Shown: piece after piece, positions 532-8,154 of the stretch | Position numbering within the stretch: position 1 is the first letter of the stretch | Layout of the letters: the number at the start of each line of letters is the position of its first letter | NCBI GenBank assembly: GCA_009784725.1 | Contig: WQXS01000020.1 | Coordinates: forward strand, 1 to 34,959 | Reading direction: 5' to 3' | DNA: 34,959 nucleotides | From: Oscillospiraceae bacterium | GTDB lineage: Bacteria; Bacillota; Clostridia; Oscillospirales; Oscillospiraceae | Translations under genes and position numbers: made by a program | Notes under the pieces: generated by a model | Told to the model about the DNA's origin: nothing | The model's input: the letters and a program-made list of their open reading frames with translations, nothing else | Database searches by the model: none

Positions 532-1527
532 TTATCCTAAATATTTACCCACAATAGTCAACAGATATTCATAAGTCGTTGGTTTTACAATAAAGTCATT
601 ACAACCATTGAGCATAGCTGCGGTAACATGATCCCGTGAGGAGTTGCCTGTCAGAAATACCACCGGTTTTTTAGAAAATTCGTCAGAGCTGCGTACTATC
701 ATAAGCAGCTCAAAACCATCCATTTCGGGCATATCGATGTCAAACAGGAATAAGTCGGGCTTTTGTGTTTTCATGACATTAAGTGCTGCTTTCGCGCTTG
801 GAACGGCTATTACTCTATAGTGGCTTTTTAGTGCGTTGTTGACAAACGACAGTATCTCCGGCATATCATCTACAGCAAGTATCGTCTTTGACATGTTTGT
901 CCCCGCAAGCTTGTCAACTGCATCAATATGCTTTGCTCTTAGTTCATAAGCAGCTCTTTTTGCGTCTTCGAATTTCCTTGCGGCAATCAGATTCATAATC
1001 CTGAAATAAGATGGCTCTTCTTTATCGCGCTCCGCCAGTTGCTCAAGCATTCTGCGTGCTTTTCTGTTTTCACCGTCATCTAAAAAGTTGCAAACGGTCT
1101 GTATATTTCTCGCAAGGTCGGCATGTATCTCTATCTCGCTGACGTATTCGCTGGCAAACCCACCTGCGTTTTGTGCTTTTTGCATTCTGACAGACAATGA
1201 AAGGACATCTGTTAAAAAAGGCTTCAACATTTTACTCGCCACCGGCAATTTACTTTTGTCAGATACGCAAGCCATAATCCTTTGTGCGTCTGATTCCAAA
1301 CCGCTGGCATAGACATTCTGCAGGAGCTTAAACAATGAGTTGATAGCGTCGGTAAATAAAACCTCTTGCGTTTCAAAATTATGAAAGGTGTCTTCAACCG
1401 CTTCAGTTAAGCGCGGCACAGTGTCTATAAACTCATTTATTGCAGGAACGATTTCTTCATGTTTTACTGAATTTTCCACCCATAATCCGGGAATTCGATG
1501 GTAGTATCTGATCACTCTATCTTCCAC
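532..1527 (-). CDS. Response regulator with a helical N-terminal module and C-terminal REC domain
   Basis: The protein has 331 residues. Residues 213-331 form a receiver domain: acidic pair D220/D221, phosphoacceptor D263 in 'LFDIDMP', T293 and K315 in 'VKP'. Residues 1-210 are predicted helical and I recognise no known domain there; no DNA-binding or enzymatic output module is visible. It is the last gene of the operon and overlaps the hybrid kinase gene by 11 bases, so it is the likely partner of that kinase's Hpt domain. A REC domain at the C-terminus behind a long N-terminal module is less common than the reverse. The N-terminal module may be the output or an interaction domain. No terminator follows. 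Confidence 0.85.
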   Translation of the reverse strand: MEDRVIRYYHRIPGLWVENSVKHEEIVPAINEFIDTVPRLTEAVEDTFHNFETQEVLFTDAINSLFKLLQNVYASGLESDAQRIMACVSDKSKLPVASKMLKPFLTDVLSLSVRMQKAQNAGGFASEYVSEIEIHADLARNIQTVCNFLDDGENRKARRMLEQLAERDKEEPSYFRIMNLIAARKFEDAKRAAYELRAKHIDAVDKLAGTNMSKTILAVDDMPEILSFVNNALKSHYRVIAVPSAKAALNVMKTQKPDLFLFDIDMPEMDGFELLMIVRSSDEFSKKPVVFLTGNSSRDHVTAAMLNGCNDFIVKPTTYEYLLTIVGKYLG

Positions 1528-3676
1528 TTAAAAGATCCTCCAGTTTGGTTATATTATTTAGTGCCTCTTCACAGTCAAAGGCTTCAAATGCAAAAGTTAT
1601 TTTTTCCAGCAGTTCATTTGTTTCTTCATCAGTGCCGGTATCGGCAAATGGCGAAATAAGCTCAAGCCCGCGATCGCGGTCATATACTTCAGCAGCGGTT
1701 TTTGCCTCGGAAAGTTTTGATATAAGTTCTTCCGAATTATCCCCGGCAAGCTGTGAGCCGGTTAGCTGCGAGCCGGGTTTTGAGCCCTGCTTAAGAGCTG
1801 TGCTCAGGTTTTTTTCCAGTTCTGTCAATCCCAATTTGAAAGGCGGATAATTTTCATTACATAATATATTATCGTTTTCCAAAGCAGCGCGTTCGAGACC
1901 TGCAGCAATATTACCTAATGCCGATGCTCCGATGTTTTTTAACACGCTTTTAAGACCATGTACCTCAACGGCAAACGATTTTATATCGGATACGATATAT
2001 CCATCCATTCTCTCTATTCTTTCAGGTAAGAGCCGGACTGTAAGCTTAACTGTGTCTATGTACACATCTTCCATGTCATTCATCGCTGTAAGCGCAGAAT
2101 CAACTTCCAATCCGGGAATCTCCTTTAGCGCCGATAATATCCCGTCAGACCCTGTACCGGTTGCATTACCGAGTCTCGGACAATCACCTGCTCTGGGACA
2201 CTCGTCCATCCAACGGCAAGTTTCGTCTTGTGAGCTTTTCTCTGTCAATAATTTTTTCTGCCGCTTTGCTTCCTCGAGAACCTCCGGTGGTTGCTTGTCG
2301 TGTATAAATGTATTGAGGACCCGGTTAAGCTGCCTTGTATCGATCGGTTTGGAAACAAAATCATCAAAACTATTTTCTGTGAAAAATTCCTTCATGCCTG
2401 CGACAGCATTTGCAGTGAGCGCTACAACAGGTTGATTGTAACCTTCATCACGCAGTATTTTTGTTGTTTCGACACCATCCATACCCGGCATCATATGATC
2501 CATAAAGATGATATCAAACGTACTCCCGGCGCGGACTTTATCGAGTACTTCATACCCGCTTGACGCTGTGTCGAGTGCAAAACCATAAGGCTTCATCAGC
2601 CCTTTTGCAACAAATACATTTGCATCGACATCATCGACAATGAGTACACTGCCGTACGGCATATATTCACGTTCAAGTTTTTTTCTTGTTGCCTGTGATG
2701 TAAATTGAAAGTTGCAAAGATTTTCAGCAATCTCTTTACCTAGAGGTTCGGCATCTGCAGATTGTTGCAGCAGGTACACTTTAAAGATTGAGCCGACGCC
2801 CGGTTCACTTTCGGCAACAATCCTGCCGTTCATCATCTCGACAAGCCCTTTTGTGATGCTCATGCCGAGACCCGTGCCTTCCGTCTTACGGTTGGCTTCC
2901 TGATTAAACATCGTGTACTCGTCATAAAGAGCGGCAAGCTGTTCATTTGTCATACCTTGTCCGGTATCCGCAATGGTCAGGACAAGATATATTCCGGTTT
3001 CGCAAACCTCAGAATCAACTCCGAAGGTTACCGTTCCTTTATCTGTGTATTTTATAGAGTTTGAAAGCATATTGTTCAATATCTGTTTAATACGAAGGTC
3101 ATCGCCGAACAGAACCGAAGGAAGTGTTTCGGCGACTTTAATAACAAACTCTATAGGCTTGCTTCCGATGCGCATAATGTTCAGACGTGCTGTGTCGTTT
3201 ATTAAGCCTGATGTTTCGTACTTGACCGGCACAAGTTCAAGTTTTCCTGTTTCAACTTTTGACATATCCAGTATATCATTGATAATACCCAAAAGTGTCT
3301 TGCCTGAGTTATTTATCCTGTCAAACGAGTCTAGTACCTCGGGCGAATGAGTATCGTTTTCAAGCTCAATATCGGATATTCCGATTATCGCATTCATAGG
3401 TGTACGTATCTCATGACTCATCGTTGCCAGAAACTTACTCTTTGCTTGTGTTGCATCTATAGCTATCTGCTTCGACTCATTTAAGCTATTTGTCAGCATG
3501 TCGGAATGTTTTGTAATCCTGCGCATTAGCTTGAGAGCACGTTTATACTCCTTAACCAGTTTTGCAAACTCGGATTTATCGACAGATTCTTTGTTATTCA
3601 TTGATGCCAAATAATCTGTGATATGGTCAAGGGTTTTTTGTTCTTCTGCGTATAGATCTGACATTTTATCCGTCAC
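1517..3676 (-). CDS. Soluble hybrid histidine kinase (coil-HisKA-HATPase-REC-Hpt)
   Basis: The protein has 719 residues and no membrane segment. Order: N-terminal helical segment 5-70; HisKA with H88 in 'MSHEIRTP'; HATPase with N-box near 201-211, 'DTGQG' at 237-241 and 'GTGLGMS' at 267-273; receiver 342-458 with D348/D349, phosphoacceptor D393 and K443; Hpt with H573 in 'VHGLKS'. A linker at 487-499 has three Cys spaced CX5CX5C. The first 65 residues resemble the start of the neighbouring GGDEF protein, suggesting a shared regulator, probably the SiaC-like protein. GTG at 3676 overlaps the stop of the SiaC-like gene (GTGA); ATG at 3664 is an alternative. Phosphate would pass H88-D393-H573 to the following response regulator. 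The C-terminal 90 residues are helical and unassigned. Confidence 0.9.
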   Translation of the reverse strand: MTDKMSDLYAEEQKTLDHITDYLASMNNKESVDKSEFAKLVKEYKRALKLMRRITKHSDMLTNSLNESKQIAIDATQAKSKFLATMSHEIRTPMNAIIGISDIELENDTHSPEVLDSFDRINNSGKTLLGIINDILDMSKVETGKLELVPVKYETSGLINDTARLNIMRIGSKPIEFVIKVAETLPSVLFGDDLRIKQILNNMLSNSIKYTDKGTVTFGVDSEVCETGIYLVLTIADTGQGMTNEQLAALYDEYTMFNQEANRKTEGTGLGMSITKGLVEMMNGRIVAESEPGVGSIFKVYLLQQSADAEPLGKEIAENLCNFQFTSQATRKKLEREYMPYGSVLIVDDVDANVFVAKGLMKPYGFALDTASSGYEVLDKVRAGSTFDIIFMDHMMPGMDGVETTKILRDEGYNQPVVALTANAVAGMKEFFTENSFDDFVSKPIDTRQLNRVLNTFIHDKQPPEVLEEAKRQKKLLTEKSSQDETCRWMDECPRAGDCPRLGNATGTGSDGILSALKEIPGLEVDSALTAMNDMEDVYIDTVKLTVRLLPERIERMDGYIVSDIKSFAVEVHGLKSVLKNIGASALGNIAAGLERAALENDNILCNENYPPFKLGLTELEKNLSTALKQGSKPGSQLTGSQLAGDNSEELISKLSEAKTAAEVYDRDRGLELISPFADTGTDEETNELLEKITFAFEAFDCEEALNNITKLEDLLSGR

Positions 3677-4059
3677 TTATTCCCTATTATAATATTGAAC
3701 TCAAGATTTTCCATATCTTCCTGGTAATCTTCGCCGCACTCGATAAGCATATCATCATCCTCATCGGCGACAATCCAATTTATTACCATCTTCTTGTCTG
3801 AAGCGTTAGCGTCCATAGCTCTCATTATATTATATAATTGCTTTGTCGTTGAACTGTTGAAATATTCCATCGCACATTCAAAAGTCAATTCGGCACAATC
3901 GGTTGCGAGATATTTTTCAAGCCATTCGTTTACTTCCATAAAAAATCCGACTACGTCCTCAAGATAGCTTTCGCCTTCAAAACGCATAAAACCTTTTTCC
4001 TCGTCAATGAGGATATATGGTGTCGTTTTTGTTTTTTCACGTTCTAATTTAAAAGCCAT
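3673..4059 (-). CDS. siaC: SiaC-like regulatory phosphoprotein (DUF1987)
   Basis: The protein has 128 residues, the usual length for DUF1987. Family features seen: an N-terminal 'TTPYILID' strand, 'FFMEVNEWLEKYL' helix, 'MEYFNSSTTKQL' segment and an acidic C-terminal half with 'ECGEDYQED'. In P. aeruginosa SiaC, a Ser/Thr in the equivalent segment is phosphorylated by SiaB and dephosphorylated by SiaA, and only the unphosphorylated form binds and activates the cyclase SiaD. Here S69, S70, T71 or T72 are candidate sites. The start shares a base with the stop of the SiaB-like gene (TAATG), so the two are translationally coupled, and its own stop overlaps the hybrid kinase start. The symbol is by family analogy; function in this lineage is inferred. 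Confidence 0.8.
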   Translation of the reverse strand: MAFKLEREKTKTTPYILIDEEKGFMRFEGESYLEDVVGFFMEVNEWLEKYLATDCAELTFECAMEYFNSSTTKQLYNIMRAMDANASDKKMVINWIVADEDDDMLIECGEDYQEDMENLEFNIIIGNK

Positions 4060-4628
4060 TACTCTTTTACCTCCTGTGCTATTTCAACATACAACGTGAA
4101 ATAAGTCATGTTTTCGTCAATAGGTTCAAGTGTATATTCAATCGGTGCAGTCACTCGTCTTGCGATTTCAATCAGCCCCAGACCTGCACCCTTGCTGTCG
4201 GGGTTATCGTTTTCGCTCCGCATTTTTTCTTTCTGATATTGACGCAGCTCTTTTTTATCAAGAGTGTTTAAATGGTCAATCTTTTGCTTGACATATTCAG
4301 CGCTACTGCTTTTTATTGCATTTCCGGTTTGGATAAAATAAGTATTGCCTTTATGTCCCAATGCCAGCATCCCGGTTGAAACTTCTTCGGTATCTAATTG
4401 GGTGTAGAGTTCTTTTTCTGCCGAATGCATAATCATATTTGTTGTTTGCTCCACAAAAACCGAAAAAATCGCTTTAGATGCTCCACTCGATAAATCATCA
4501 CTTGCTAAACTTGTTTTAACCATTTCGGCAATACCTTTAATGCCGTCATCCCATAAAGGACCGTTGTAATAAATACTAATGTTTAAATCCTTGAATCTGT
4601 CGGTATATTCTCGCATGTTCAGTACCAT
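4059..4628 (-). CDS. siaB: SiaB-like protein kinase of the SiaC switch (DUF6272, GHKL fold)
   Basis: ATG at 4628 is chosen because GGAGG lies 9 bases upstream; the longer frame to 4751 would overlap the GGDEF gene and adds an unlikely sequence. The 189-residue protein has features of a GHKL ATPase without a phosphorylatable His domain: an N-box-like 'EQTTNMIMH' at 60-68 and a glycine lid 'GAGLGL' at 148-152 after an extended insertion. SiaB proteins phosphorylate SiaC on Ser/Thr, as anti-sigma kinases such as SpoIIAB do for their antagonists. Spacing to the GGDEF stop is one base and the stop overlaps the SiaC-like start. The family assignment rests on sequence pattern and on gene context. 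Confidence 0.75.
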   Translation of the reverse strand: MVLNMREYTDRFKDLNISIYYNGPLWDDGIKGIAEMVKTSLASDDLSSGASKAIFSVFVEQTTNMIMHSAEKELYTQLDTEEVSTGMLALGHKGNTYFIQTGNAIKSSSAEYVKQKIDHLNTLDKKELRQYQKEKMRSENDNPDSKGAGLGLIEIARRVTAPIEYTLEPIDENMTYFTLYVEIAQEVKE

Positions 4629-4629
4629 T

Positions 4630-5361
4630 TTAAGTGACCTCCAAAAAATTATTATATGTATAACGATTGCGCCCGTTTTGCTTTGACATGTATAAAGCCT
4701 TATCCGCCTGCTTGATGTAATCATCGCCGCTATGCGTATGATGCACCTCACTTGTCGTTACCCCGATAGATGCAGTTACGCAACCTGCAACTTCATTTTT
4801 TTCATGAGGGATGTTTTTCGCCCGTATGTTATTAAGTATCCTGTCTGCCATTAGTCGTGCGCCGCTTTCGCCTGTATCCGGCAGAATTACGGTAAATTCT
4901 TCACCTCCGTAACGTGCAACGAAATCATCAGCTCTCGACAGGCTTTCTGCGATGGCATCCGCAACAGCTTTTAAGCATAAATCACCCTCACTGTGTCCAT
5001 ACGTGTCGTTGTACTTCTTGAAGTAGTCAATATCCATCATTAGTACGCTTAATTCGCCGCCGGAGCGCGAAATCGACTTGATTATTCTCGCCAAATTTTC
5101 ATCCAGAAATCGCCTGTTATAAACACCTGTAAGCATATCGAAATGAACTTTGTCGAGCAAATCGTGTTTGCTTGTGTTTAAGGTCATTGTCGTTCTGTCG
5201 GAAACCTTTGTCGAGCGGCGAAGTTGCTTTAGCAATCTACCGTATTCTTTTACAAGTGAATCATATTCCGATTTTTCTATCATGCTTTCGTTAGCGAAGC
5301 GCTTAGAATAGTCATTTGCTGTATCATAAATTTCCTGTTCAACAGCAAACAAATCGTCCAT
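4630..5361 (-). CDS. Diguanylate cyclase with N-terminal coil (SiaD-like)
   Basis: The protein has 243 residues. Residues 75-240 are a GGDEF domain with the active-site signature 'GGEEF' at 152-156 and an intact allosteric inhibitory site RxxD (R143, D146) upstream, so it should make c-di-GMP and be feedback inhibited. Residues 1-70 are helical, probably coiled coil, and match the start of the hybrid kinase. In P. aeruginosa SiaD the N-terminal stalk is where SiaC binds; I infer the same here. No membrane segment. It starts one base after the phosphatase stop and ends one base before the SiaB-like start, so it lies inside the switch operon. Confidence 0.9.
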   Translation of the reverse strand: MDDLFAVEQEIYDTANDYSKRFANESMIEKSEYDSLVKEYGRLLKQLRRSTKVSDRTTMTLNTSKHDLLDKVHFDMLTGVYNRRFLDENLARIIKSISRSGGELSVLMMDIDYFKKYNDTYGHSEGDLCLKAVADAIAESLSRADDFVARYGGEEFTVILPDTGESGARLMADRILNNIRAKNIPHEKNEVAGCVTASIGVTTSEVHHTHSGDDYIKQADKALYMSKQNGRNRYTYNNFLEVT

Positions 5362-5362
5362 A

Positions 5363-6961
5363 TTAATGGTTATTTCCTCCTGTTCCGGGTTTGAAGGTTA
5401 AAAGCTCAATGTCATCCCGCCTCGGTTCTTCACCCTGGTATTTTATAAAAGCATCCCATATCTTCTGAGAAATGACTGATTGCGGCTCGTTGTGGTTTTC
5501 CAGGATAATGCTTTTAAATTCCTTGTATCCATATCGTTTATTACGCTCGCCGCCGATTTGGTCCGACAACCCGTCCGAGGCGATATAAAACTTATTATCG
5601 GGGTTTGCGGGAATGGTTATTGTTTTTATTTCATCCTTACTTGCTATTTTTCCTTCTCCCACAAAAATTGATTGTCCTTTATGGCGGGTTACTTCTGCTC
5701 CGTCACAAACGAACACACAGGTATTTCCTGCCGATATGGTAACACTGCCGTCATTTGCAATAAATAATACGGCAAGGTCACAACCGTCATTTATGTCCAT
5801 GCTGACAATATCATCGTCACTGACATTCATCGCAGATACAATTTTTTGATCAAGATTCCATATAATGCCTGCGGTATCATGACAGTTACCCGGCTCAAGT
5901 GTTGATTCGAGTGAGCTAACGACCAGCATGGTAAGTAATGCACCCGGTGTTCCGTGTCCGGTGCAGTCCGCTACGCAAAGAACCGTACCGCTATCGTATT
6001 TTTTAGCCCAATAAATATCACCGCCAACAATGTCGCGCGGTTCCCAAATGATGGAATAGTCTTCAAACGTTTCTTCAAAAATACTCCGGGGCGGCAGGAG
6101 GTTCTTTTGTATTTTACTTGCGTAGGTGATACCGGAAACCATGATTTCCCTGGCCTTCAAACCATGAATCATATACCGGAAGCTGTCAGCAAGAATACCA
6201 AGCTCACTTTTTGAATGATAATCCAGCTCTACCGTATCAAGATTACCGTTAGATAACTCAAGAGCAACGCCTGTTACTTTATTAAGCGGTCGTATAATCG
6301 AACGTGCGAATACGAATGCGCTGAATGTAAGAATTAGCATACTCATAACGAGGATAACAACAAATAAGATGACCGATTCTGTGAACTGTCTTGAAGCGCG
6401 AAGGTTCGCATCATTTGACTGAGCTTCAAGAATATCCGTAAGCAACAGCAATTCCAGCGATATATCTTCGGCAACGTCATAGAAGTCGCCTCTCATCAGC
6501 CGTATGGAGTGGGCTTCAAAACCGGTCTGTTCGGCATACGAAATAATATACATCACATGCTCGCGGAGAGATGGAAGTATTTCGTAAAGGTAATAAACAG
6601 CTTCACGCTCGTACTGTGCATTTGTACCGTGTGTGTCTAATACACTTTTATACTGCCTTATGTTTTCTTCAAAATTACCTAAATTGCGCTCTACATTTGC
6701 TCTGAAGTGTTGATTTTCTTCTCCGGTGTTAAAATCAATCGCTAAGTTTTGTAAATTTGAACGCATTGCGTTAAACTCACCGCGTGCGTTTGCAATAAAT
6801 TTCAATGGAAGCGTAATCGCTTCGTAACCGAGGCTTATTTCGTTAGAAAGACGGCGAGTGTTTAATAGACCCGTCGTTTCGGTAACAAAAATCAATATAA
6901 ACGCAAAGCACATTATAATGGCAAGACGACGCCCGATTTTAATATCTTGAAATGATTTCAT
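5363..6961 (-). CDS. siaA: SiaA-like membrane phosphatase (4-helix sensor, HAMP, PP2C/SpoIIE)
   Basis: The protein has 532 residues. A first membrane helix at about 12-33 and a second at 195-218 enclose an extracellular helical sensor region (45-190). A HAMP linker (about 219-271) leads to a PP2C-type SpoIIE domain (about 275-528) with 'KIQKNLLPP', 'VGGDIYW' (metal-binding D315), 'ADCTGHGTPG' (D332) and a late 'ASDGLSDQ'. SiaA removes phosphate from SiaC and so turns the cyclase on; signal sensing outside the cell would tune this. The ATG overlaps the stop of the binding-protein gene by 4 bases (ATGA). Other SpoIIE phosphatases of the RsbU type look similar; the SiaB and SiaC neighbours make the SiaA role most likely. 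Confidence 0.85.
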   Translation of the reverse strand: MKSFQDIKIGRRLAIIMCFAFILIFVTETTGLLNTRRLSNEISLGYEAITLPLKFIANARGEFNAMRSNLQNLAIDFNTGEENQHFRANVERNLGNFEENIRQYKSVLDTHGTNAQYEREAVYYLYEILPSLREHVMYIISYAEQTGFEAHSIRLMRGDFYDVAEDISLELLLLTDILEAQSNDANLRASRQFTESVILFVVILVMSMLILTFSAFVFARSIIRPLNKVTGVALELSNGNLDTVELDYHSKSELGILADSFRYMIHGLKAREIMVSGITYASKIQKNLLPPRSIFEETFEDYSIIWEPRDIVGGDIYWAKKYDSGTVLCVADCTGHGTPGALLTMLVVSSLESTLEPGNCHDTAGIIWNLDQKIVSAMNVSDDDIVSMDINDGCDLAVLFIANDGSVTISAGNTCVFVCDGAEVTRHKGQSIFVGEGKIASKDEIKTITIPANPDNKFYIASDGLSDQIGGERNKRYGYKEFKSIILENHNEPQSVISQKIWDAFIKYQGEEPRRDDIELLTFKPGTGGNNH

Positions 6962-8154
6962 TGACCGTCAACCTCCCTTACATTATCGACAAACCAATCA
7001 ATTGAGAGCTTTTCGCTGTCCGACAAGGTTTGTCCTGCTTGAACACGGATCGCTCCCTCGTTGTCATTTATCGGCCCTGTAAAGACGTCAAAACCGCTTA
7101 TTATTCGGAGCCGCGCCTGTTCAACGGCTTCCCCCGTGCCGGGTGCAACGTTTTCCGTCAGTTCCTCAAGCATTACGATTCCTGTTTCAAGTCCGTCCCA
7201 ATGATTTCCCGACTCCCATGTGCCATCGATGATTTGCTGTACCTGTTCAATCATAAACGGTCCCCAGTTCCATAAAGGTGCAGTCAGATACGCATTTGGT
7301 GAACGAAAGCCCATCGGCGAATTGTAACCAATACCCCAAATGCCTGATTCTTCTGCAACAATTTGCGGTTGTAAAGAATCCTGATGCTGTGCAATAACAT
7401 CACATCCGATATCAACCAACTCTAGGGCAAGATCACGTTCAAGACCTGTGCTTAACCATGTATTTGTCCATGTGACATTAACCGTTGCGTCGGGGTTTAC
7501 GCTTTTTACTCCTAATGCAAAAGCATTTATACCTCTGCGGACTTCAGGTATGGGAAGCGCTGCAACATATCCGATTTCGTTTGTCTCTGTGCGAAGCCCT
7601 GCGACGATTCCGCTGAGATAACGCATTTGATACATCCTGCCAAAATAAGCCGACATATTATCTGAGGTCATATAGCCGGAGCAATGGAAGAAAATAATGT
7701 CGGGATTTTGCTCTGCCATTAAAGCTGTAGCTTCCATAAACCCGAAACTGCATGAAAATATTACAGTGCAGCCTTCATCAATAAGCTCCTGTATCATTTC
7801 AATGGTATGCTCACCCGGGGTAACCATTTCCCGCCAAAATGTTTCAACGCCAAGTTCTATAGAGAGGGCAAGCCGTCCCTGATTCTGTGCGTATGTAAAT
7901 CCAAAATCCCCAATGTTGCCGTTGAAAATGAAACCTACTTTTAAGTCATGGCGTATTGTATACTCGTCGGTAGCCGCTTTTTCGATTTCGGGGAAACTGT
8001 GTCTTTTACCAACTCGTGTTTCCGGTGTATTGCCGGCAGTAGCTGTCTTGAATCCGCTGCTTTCCGAACATCCGCTTATCGCAAACAGCAAAGTAATCAT
8101 AACAGCAAGCAGAACGATTCTTCGTACGAACGCACTGCGGTTGTTTTTAGACAT
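6958..8154 (-). CDS. BMP/PnrA-type substrate-binding lipoprotein
   Basis: The protein has 398 residues. A signal peptide ends in 'AISGC', so it is lipidated at C29 and held on the outer face of the membrane. The rest has the two-lobed BMP family pattern (purine nucleoside and related binding proteins): 'KVGFIFNGNIGDFGFT' near the N-lobe start, 'VIFSCSFGFME', and 'DVIAQHQDSLQP' in the hinge region. ATG at 8154 follows AGGAGG by 10 bases. No ABC permease or ATPase gene is nearby; instead the gene overlaps the SiaA-like sensor gene by 4 bases. I infer it presents a bound ligand to the sensor rather than feeding a transporter. The ligand cannot be told from sequence. Confidence 0.88.
   Translation of the reverse strand: MSKNNRSAFVRRIVLLAVMITLLFAISGCSESSGFKTATAGNTPETRVGKRHSFPEIEKAATDEYTIRHDLKVGFIFNGNIGDFGFTYAQNQGRLALSIELGVETFWREMVTPGEHTIEMIQELIDEGCTVIFSCSFGFMEATALMAEQNPDIIFFHCSGYMTSDNMSAYFGRMYQMRYLSGIVAGLRTETNEIGYVAALPIPEVRRGINAFALGVKSVNPDATVNVTWTNTWLSTGLERDLALELVDIGCDVIAQHQDSLQPQIVAEESGIWGIGYNSPMGFRSPNAYLTAPLWNWGPFMIEQVQQIIDGTWESGNHWDGLETGIVMLEELTENVAPGTGEAVEQARLRIISGFDVFTGPINDNEGAIRVQAGQTLSDSEKLSIDWFVDNVREVDGQ

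Follow-up and report, generated by a model that had tools for sequence, protein, structure and literature searches.

An N-terminal coil common to a diguanylate cyclase and a hybrid histidine kinase as a likely docking element for a SiaC-like switch protein

Contig WQXS01000020.1 of an Oscillospiraceae bacterium (assembly GCA_009784725.1) is contig 20 of a draft genome of 2.77 Mb that is 98% complete; its whole length of 34,959 nucleotides is called the window here. It carries relatives of the siaA, siaB, siaC and siaD genes of Pseudomonas aeruginosa, followed by genes for a hybrid histidine kinase (HK) and a response regulator. An N-terminal segment of about 70 residues is common to the GGDEF-type diguanylate cyclase and the HK, and the segment would be a portable docking coil for the small switch protein SiaC. 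It is likely that SiaC docks on both coils and thereby sets the cyclase and the kinase together. Binding of SiaC to the kinase coil, taken by itself, is highly probable, and activation of the kinase by docking is somewhat favoured over inhibition.

How alike are the two coils? Residues 1-73 of the GGDEF protein align without gaps with residues 5-77 of the HK (33/73 identical, 42 positive, E=3e-14 by BLASTP), and all remaining BLASTP pieces between the two proteins have E values of 4 or more. A preliminary description of this DNA had counted about 32 gapless identities between residues 1-65 and 5-69; the recount gives 32, and the two genes lie where that description placed them, with the SiaC gene (PF09345) between them. 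The Smith-Waterman score of the coil pair is 150. Plain shuffles (5000) reach at most 61, and 5000 others in which the hydrophobic/polar pattern is preserved reach at most 72, so that coiled-coil composition does not explain the likeness. Both coils are themselves members of the profile A3 (29 coils, all from SiaC loci), whose scores for them are given in Table 1.

The SiaD chain of structure 7E6G offers a guide to the function of the segment. There, T68 of SiaC bonds with S82 and Q86 of SiaD, Q86 and D83 also interact with Y65, S69 and N67 of SiaC, stalk residues including K77, R80, and R84 bond with acids in the helices of SiaC, and phosphorylation of T68 blocks SiaD binding (PMC8457831). 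A four-coil profile matches residues 47-113 of this chain at E=0.036 among PDB sequences; since this match is weak on its own, it is the aligned contact residues that carry the putative assignment to the SiaD type. In the alignment, S82-D83 of SiaD faces the S-D pair of the coils. Both window proteins have S and D at positions 82 and 83 and a basic residue at 77 as well as at 80, and the GGDEF protein also has R56 after D55, where the HK has M60. Across a set of 87 aligned coils, D occurs at the D83 position in all 87 and S at the S82 position in 75, and K or R occupies position 77 in 78 and position 80 in 62; these figures are somewhat flattered, because the coils were chosen by profiles built from such coils and at least one genome is counted twice (L057 and L127, whose contigs are equally long and whose gene lengths agree). 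The 21 plain coil kinases keep each of the four positions in 21/21. The SiaC side of the contact is conserved as well: among 94 SiaC proteins, Y65 is found in 94, N67 in 92, T or S at 68 in 94, S69 in 92, and an acid at 110 and 114 in 92 and 93, respectively.

Is the segment simply a coil of the kind that many signalling proteins share? S-helices and coils commonly join DHp and GGDEF domains, and the segment is joined to exactly these domains. Genomes that lack SiaC hold many kinases and cyclases, and none of the sampled genomes without SiaC above the cut-off has a coil match at E 0.001 (0/388 in the phylum sample and 0/289 in the class sample, the two samples overlapping). Where profile A3 does match at this threshold, in 2/291 genomes of the class and 10/398 of the phylum, the genomes are the same 2 and the same 10 that have SiaC above the cut-off. 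One genome, G179, is marked as 11% contaminated; another in the phylum sample, G304, lacks the coil, and its SiaC match contains stops and does not reach the cut-off. The phylum sample gave 15 coil matches, of which 14 lie no more than 5 kb from SiaC, the exception being a GGDEF protein on contig 5 of the window's own genome. The preliminary description had named a dimerisation coil common to many unrelated kinases as the case that would tell against docking; it fails on these samples, and a generic dimerisation coil is rejected on them. The shuffles also fall far short, and it is most improbable that the segment is a generic S-helix or signalling coil with no specific partner.

The preliminary description had also proposed a search for the segment near other DUF1987 genes, which has now been run. 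One genome per species was scanned for SiaC relatives, and the best 80 of at least 318 loci were kept; 13 further SiaC loci, including the window and loci of the genomes G377 and G605, were also read. Coil proteins of six output kinds occur in 69/80 loci, with 70 coil open reading frames (ORFs) in total: 41 GGDEF proteins, 19 plain histidine kinases, 4 hybrid kinases, 4 GGDEF-HD-GYP proteins, 1 LytS-type kinase, and 1 class III cyclase. The assignment to these classes comes from phmmer runs, each with one domain as query, and Pfam was run on seven coil proteins, five of them among the 70 (for that of L093 it showed an ATPase domain only). The plain kinases come mostly from relatives of Azospirillum and Magnetospirillum, and also from Ammoniphilus; the LytS-type kinase is from Treponema. 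In a Thiotrichaceae metagenome-assembled genome (MAG), the coil is followed by a PAS domain, a class III nucleotide cyclase, and REC, in a gene after siaC (L095:7476-9461), with cAMP or cGMP as a possible output. A coil protein is likewise encoded in 12 of the 13 further loci. No ORF of the 80 loci matches both SiaC and the coil, and the fusion found in L091 joins only SiaB and SiaC.

The position of the coil genes in their operons is also consistent with docking. The coil gene starts directly after siaC (-60 to +150 bases) in 34/41 GGDEF-SiaC pairs and in 18/19 plain kinase pairs, a count that leaves out L046, where no SiaC ORF was called, and takes L078 twice. The kinase thus takes the place of siaD; in L093 (Magnetospirillum) and L053 (Azospirillum) it occupies that slot by itself. 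Taken together, the alignment with the SiaC-contacting stalk of 7E6G, the restriction to SiaC genomes, and the presence of the segment at the head of kinases in the siaD slot suggest, in agreement with the preliminary description, that the coil is a SiaD-type SiaC-docking element.

Two outputs around a single SiaC are found in 1/80 scanned loci (L025) and in 3/13 further loci (the window, G377, and G605). L025, from an Oscillospiraceae MAG (Emb289P3), has the order siaA-siaB-siaC-coil GGDEF-coil HK-second SpoIIE-regulator. Its HK and regulator are orthologous to those of the window (HK, 74% identity over the aligned part; regulator, E=2e-93, at L025:14744-15739 after the second SpoIIE gene). 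In G377 and G605, which belong to one genus, one SiaC is flanked by a coil kinase, read divergently, and a coil GGDEF-HD-GYP protein; a second SiaC locus of G605, L134, is considered below. The two-output partner switch envisaged in the preliminary description therefore stands as a recurrent gene arrangement; on the kinase side it is weakened by differences in the motif of the HK and by the covariation analysis, both of which are taken up below.

How might docking be read by such different outputs? In the AlphaFold2 single-chain models, the GGDEF protein has helices at 6-21 and 27-73 (mean predicted local distance difference test score, pLDDT, 92) and the HK at 10-25 and 34-105 (mean pLDDT 81, predicted template modelling score 0.54). 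The long helix of the HK is continuous with the DHp helix, and the motif lies within the long helix in both models. From the docking D to the acceptor His, 26 kinases show spacings of 22 (1), 29 (3), 36 (3), 52 (18), and 153 (1); the spacing of 52 belongs to a related, mostly alphaproteobacterial group, and that of 153 has a PAS domain between. From the docking D to the GGDEF motif, 47 cyclases show 20 (27), 27 (15), 55 (1), and 24 (4), and PAS-linked coil proteins have a spacing of 23 in 11/11. The differences within 22/29/36 and within 20/27/55 are whole heptads, which suggests that docking is read through the register of the coil. Fold searches were made with both models. That of the GGDEF protein matches 7E6G along 5-242 with a root-mean-square deviation of 19.9, behind WspR entries, and adds little on the coil; for the HK, the matches listed are histidine kinases.

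A mechanism can be proposed from these data. The SiaA phosphatase and the SiaB kinase would set the phosphorylation of SiaC at S69. Unphosphorylated SiaC would bind the SD motif in the dimeric GGDEF stalk, as in P. aeruginosa, and in the dimeric hybrid HK. Docking would then fix the register of a parallel coil that leads straight into the GGDEF pair or into the DHp helices of the kinase, so that a single switch would set the synthesis of cyclic di-GMP (c-di-GMP) and the phosphorelay to the adjacent response regulator together.

Several observations weigh against docking on both coils. In the HMMER search, one unrelated chain scores as well as 7E6G. In the window HK, M and T replace R84 and Q86 of SiaD, so that its affinity for SiaC could differ, and hybrid kinases are looser as a group, the S82 position being S in 3/5 (window included). 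Spacings of 52 (18/26, not 1 mod 7), 153 (1/26), and 24 (4/47) fall outside the heptad series. The covariation of coil and SiaC (85 pairs) places 15 of the top 20 of 3564 column pairs in published interface elements, which 1 of 107 circular shifts equals; when the top 50 and the top 100 are taken instead, the observed count is reached by 11 and 13 of the 107 shifts, respectively. The mean rank fraction of the published contact pairs is 0.46, and no covariation is seen in the 39 non-GGDEF pairs. Coil position 84 is basic in 30/30 pairs in which SiaC 110 is D versus 23/52 with E, a contrast confounded by descent; the count leaves out the window rows, and the window HK (M with D) is an exception. 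The coil GGDEF protein of contig 5 lies near STAS proteins, with no SiaC nearby. Finally, some SiaC loci lack the coil. There is no coil match in 11/80: L018 is cut by its contig, L047 contains a cut GGDEF gene, in L042, L044, and L052 a reduced motif (KLARIGDRTQ) was seen by eye in a GGDEF protein, and in L021, L026, L072, L087, L094, and L097 none is seen in the locus DNA examined. Similarly, L134, a second SiaC locus of G605, has siaA-B-C and then a PAS-type kinase without a coil match, which shows that a kinase can stand beside siaC and lack the coil; the other SiaC locus of that genome holds two coil proteins.

The two Treponema loci among these, L021 and L026, have complete siaA-B-C sets and no coil match within about 10 kb on either side; their output may lie elsewhere in the genome.

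What else could two like coils in one operon do? SiaC might dock on both with opposite signs or in different phosphorylation states, activating the cyclase while inhibiting the kinase or being held by it, and so choose between the outputs. The differences between the HK and GGDEF motifs at the R84 and Q86 positions would fit such a choice. HsbA, an anti-anti-sigma protein of P. aeruginosa, has FlgM as one partner. In the HptB pathway, it interacts with the cyclase HsbD (PMC5085249). The S, D, and basic positions that meet SiaC near the acceptor are, however, kept in both coils, and the heptad spacing suggests that docking is used in the same mechanical way by the two outputs; an arrangement of opposite signs is possible, and clearly less likely than joint control. 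The kinase coil might instead bind another switch protein of the same genome, either the second SiaC, on contig 27, or a STAS protein on contig 5. There are candidates enough, with two SiaC proteins (52% identical), two STAS proteins beside a coil GGDEF protein, and four coil proteins in all, two in the window and one each on contigs 27 and 5. Against this, siaC and the HK gene of the window overlap by 4 bases, and L025 keeps siaC, the coil GGDEF gene, and the coil HK gene together, which makes another partner unlikely.

A further alternative is that the common coil couples the cyclase directly to the kinase in mixed dimers or bundles, with SiaC as a partner of the cyclase only. The coils are alike enough (46% identity over 67 profile columns), and both are presumably parallel dimers, to judge from SiaD and from DHp domains. 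Yet the 80 loci hold 24 ORFs for coil kinases (19 plain, 4 hybrid, 1 LytS-type), and for 23 of them the locus DNA examined has no coil GGDEF protein, L025 alone having both, and it is the SiaC-contact residues that are conserved, not merely core positions. Mixed dimers are accordingly quite improbable, and docking of SiaC on both coils is the reading preferred here.

The seven genes of the window that include this system (Table 1) are packed end to end on the minus strand from 8154 down to 532. They are very likely one transcript, because neighbours overlap by 1 to 11 bases or sit one base apart. The SiaC-like protein scores 114 bits with PF09345 (cut-off 24.5) and has the acceptor motif N68-S69-S70 (N-[ST]-S), S69 taking the position of T68 in P. 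aeruginosa SiaC; with the narrower equivalog model NF038265 for SiaC proper it stays below the cut-off (71 versus 150). The SiaB-like protein reaches 163.7 bits with NF038262 (cut-off 85) and 98 with the equivalog model for SiaB proper, below its cut-off of 225, and the SiaA-like protein has 56 bits with SpoIIE (cut-off 25) and 176 with the model for SiaA proper, below 700. In the GGDEF protein, the stalk with the SiaC-contact residues is present, a simple motif pattern did not find a second SiaC motif about 32 residues upstream, and the equivalog model NF038266 gives 172.5 bits versus a cut-off of 290. Judged by these comparisons, it is SiaD-like and not SiaD proper. The hybrid HK also has an Hpt match under Pfam's cut-off, and no relatives of the whole protein were found among viral contigs.

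Table 1. Genes of the window operon and the coil segments within them
Feature	Position	Strand	Basis or remark
Bmp/PnrA-like substrate-binding lipoprotein	6958..8154	-	Pfam
SiaA-like phosphatase, 4HB_MCP-HAMP-SpoIIE	5363..6961	-	Pfam
Diguanylate cyclase, SiaD-like	4630..5361	-	GGDEF 1.1e-50
GGDEF protein residues 1-73, candidate docking coil with a short helix and then a long stalk helix (S54-D55)	5143..5361	-	BLASTP; A3 82 bits
Putative SiaC-docking motif, GGDEF protein residues 46-63 (R49, K52, S54, D55)	5173..5226	-	Alignment with SiaD of 7E6G, published contacts
SiaB-family kinase (DUF6272; NF038262)	4059..4628	-	ATG at 4628 taken as start
SiaC-like switch protein (PF09345, 3.9e-33), predicted phospho-acceptor S69	3673..4059	-	
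Hybrid HK, HisKA-HATPase-REC	1517..3676	-	Acceptor H88, 29 residues past D59
Like coil of the hybrid HK, residues 5-77, running into the DHp helix (S58-D59)	3446..3664	-	BLASTP; A3 75 bits
Putative SiaC-docking motif, HK residues 50-67 (R53, K56, S58, D59)	3476..3529	-	Alignment with SiaD of 7E6G, published contacts
Response regulator, N-terminal part without Pfam match, and REC	532..1527	-	

The N-terminal part of the response regulator, about 200 residues, matches no Pfam family at E 0.01. At the other end of the operon, the Bmp-type lipoprotein and the SiaA-like phosphatase, which bears a 4HB sensor, have an orthologous pair in L027:6578-9432; because the pair recurs, the lipoprotein may carry a signal to SiaA as a possible input partner.

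Elsewhere in the genome, contig 27 has a canonical siaA-B-C-D operon with a coil GGDEF protein after siaC. At the end of contig 5 (L015:2080-5381), a coil GGDEF gene lies beside genes for two STAS proteins, an RsbW-like ATPase, and a SpoIIE phosphatase, a neighbourhood reminiscent of a classical partner switch. The contig ends before the reading frame of this GGDEF gene does, and the part upstream still resembles the first helix of the module. The coil may thus be a docking element for ordinary STAS switch proteins too.

The 13 best SiaC matches (L018-L030) come from MAGs labelled Defluviitaleaceae, Oscillospiraceae, Lachnospiraceae, Treponema, or Fibrobacteria/Fibrimonadales. Several of these MAGs have the same sample codes, and in the window's class SiaC is found in only 2/291 genomes. 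It looks as if SiaC has been exchanged between phyla in one habitat, which from the labels is probably the termite gut.

How does the window compare with known systems? GacS and RetS provide the nearest solved folds to the core of its HK (7z8n, 6dk7). In these hybrid kinases, inputs arrive through membrane sensor domains and not through a SiaC coil. The closest relative is SiaABCD of P. aeruginosa (7E6G; PMC8457831), which like the window has a SiaA-type phosphatase, the SiaB kinase, the SiaC switch, and a GGDEF stalk with SiaC-contact residues. Unlike SiaD, which has two docking motifs 32 residues apart, the window proteins have one recognised motif per chain; the predicted acceptor is Ser and not Thr, the sia genes have the order A-D-B-C, and the operon has a second coil-bearing output, the hybrid HK with its response regulator. 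In the HptB-HsbA-HsbD pathway an anti-anti-sigma type switch also interacts with a diguanylate cyclase; HsbA is of the STAS type and not SiaC, and the abstract names no docking coil that it has in common with a kinase (PMC5085249). In the BgrSTUWV-BgrR system of Sinorhizobium meliloti, as cited in PMC8457831, a partner switch likewise acts on a diguanylate cyclase, with a STAS partner, BgrV, and a single cyclase output.

Chen et al. proposed that DUF1987 proteins generally modulate adjacent proteins, and the main text of their paper mentions histidine kinases 0 times (PMC8457831). In the literature within reach, most subscription papers lying outside it, the only case of SiaC docking found is that of the cyclase, and no kinase docking coil was found. 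The window is therefore proposed to hold a variant of the SiaABC partner switch that is new in its coil-bearing kinase output.

Partner switches are commonly regarded as distinct from two-component systems. If the reading preferred here is true, the docking coil joins them, and the phosphorylation of one small protein would set both a cyclase and an HK. On balance it seems probable that SiaC is the hub of a modular class, in which a docking coil of about 70 residues sits on at least six kinds of output, a Ser/Thr switch controls phosphorelays and second messengers, and some operons would control both through like sites. A sequence rule, the SD motif in an N-terminal coil near siaC, with heptad spacing in many members, would then predict the inputs of many cytoplasmic kinases, cyclases, and HD-GYP proteins in several phyla. 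It would also offer a docking-coil module for which one crystal structure, that of the cyclase case, exists. From one bacterium to the next, the same switch probably controls outputs of different kinds, and in the window operon it would control two of them together.

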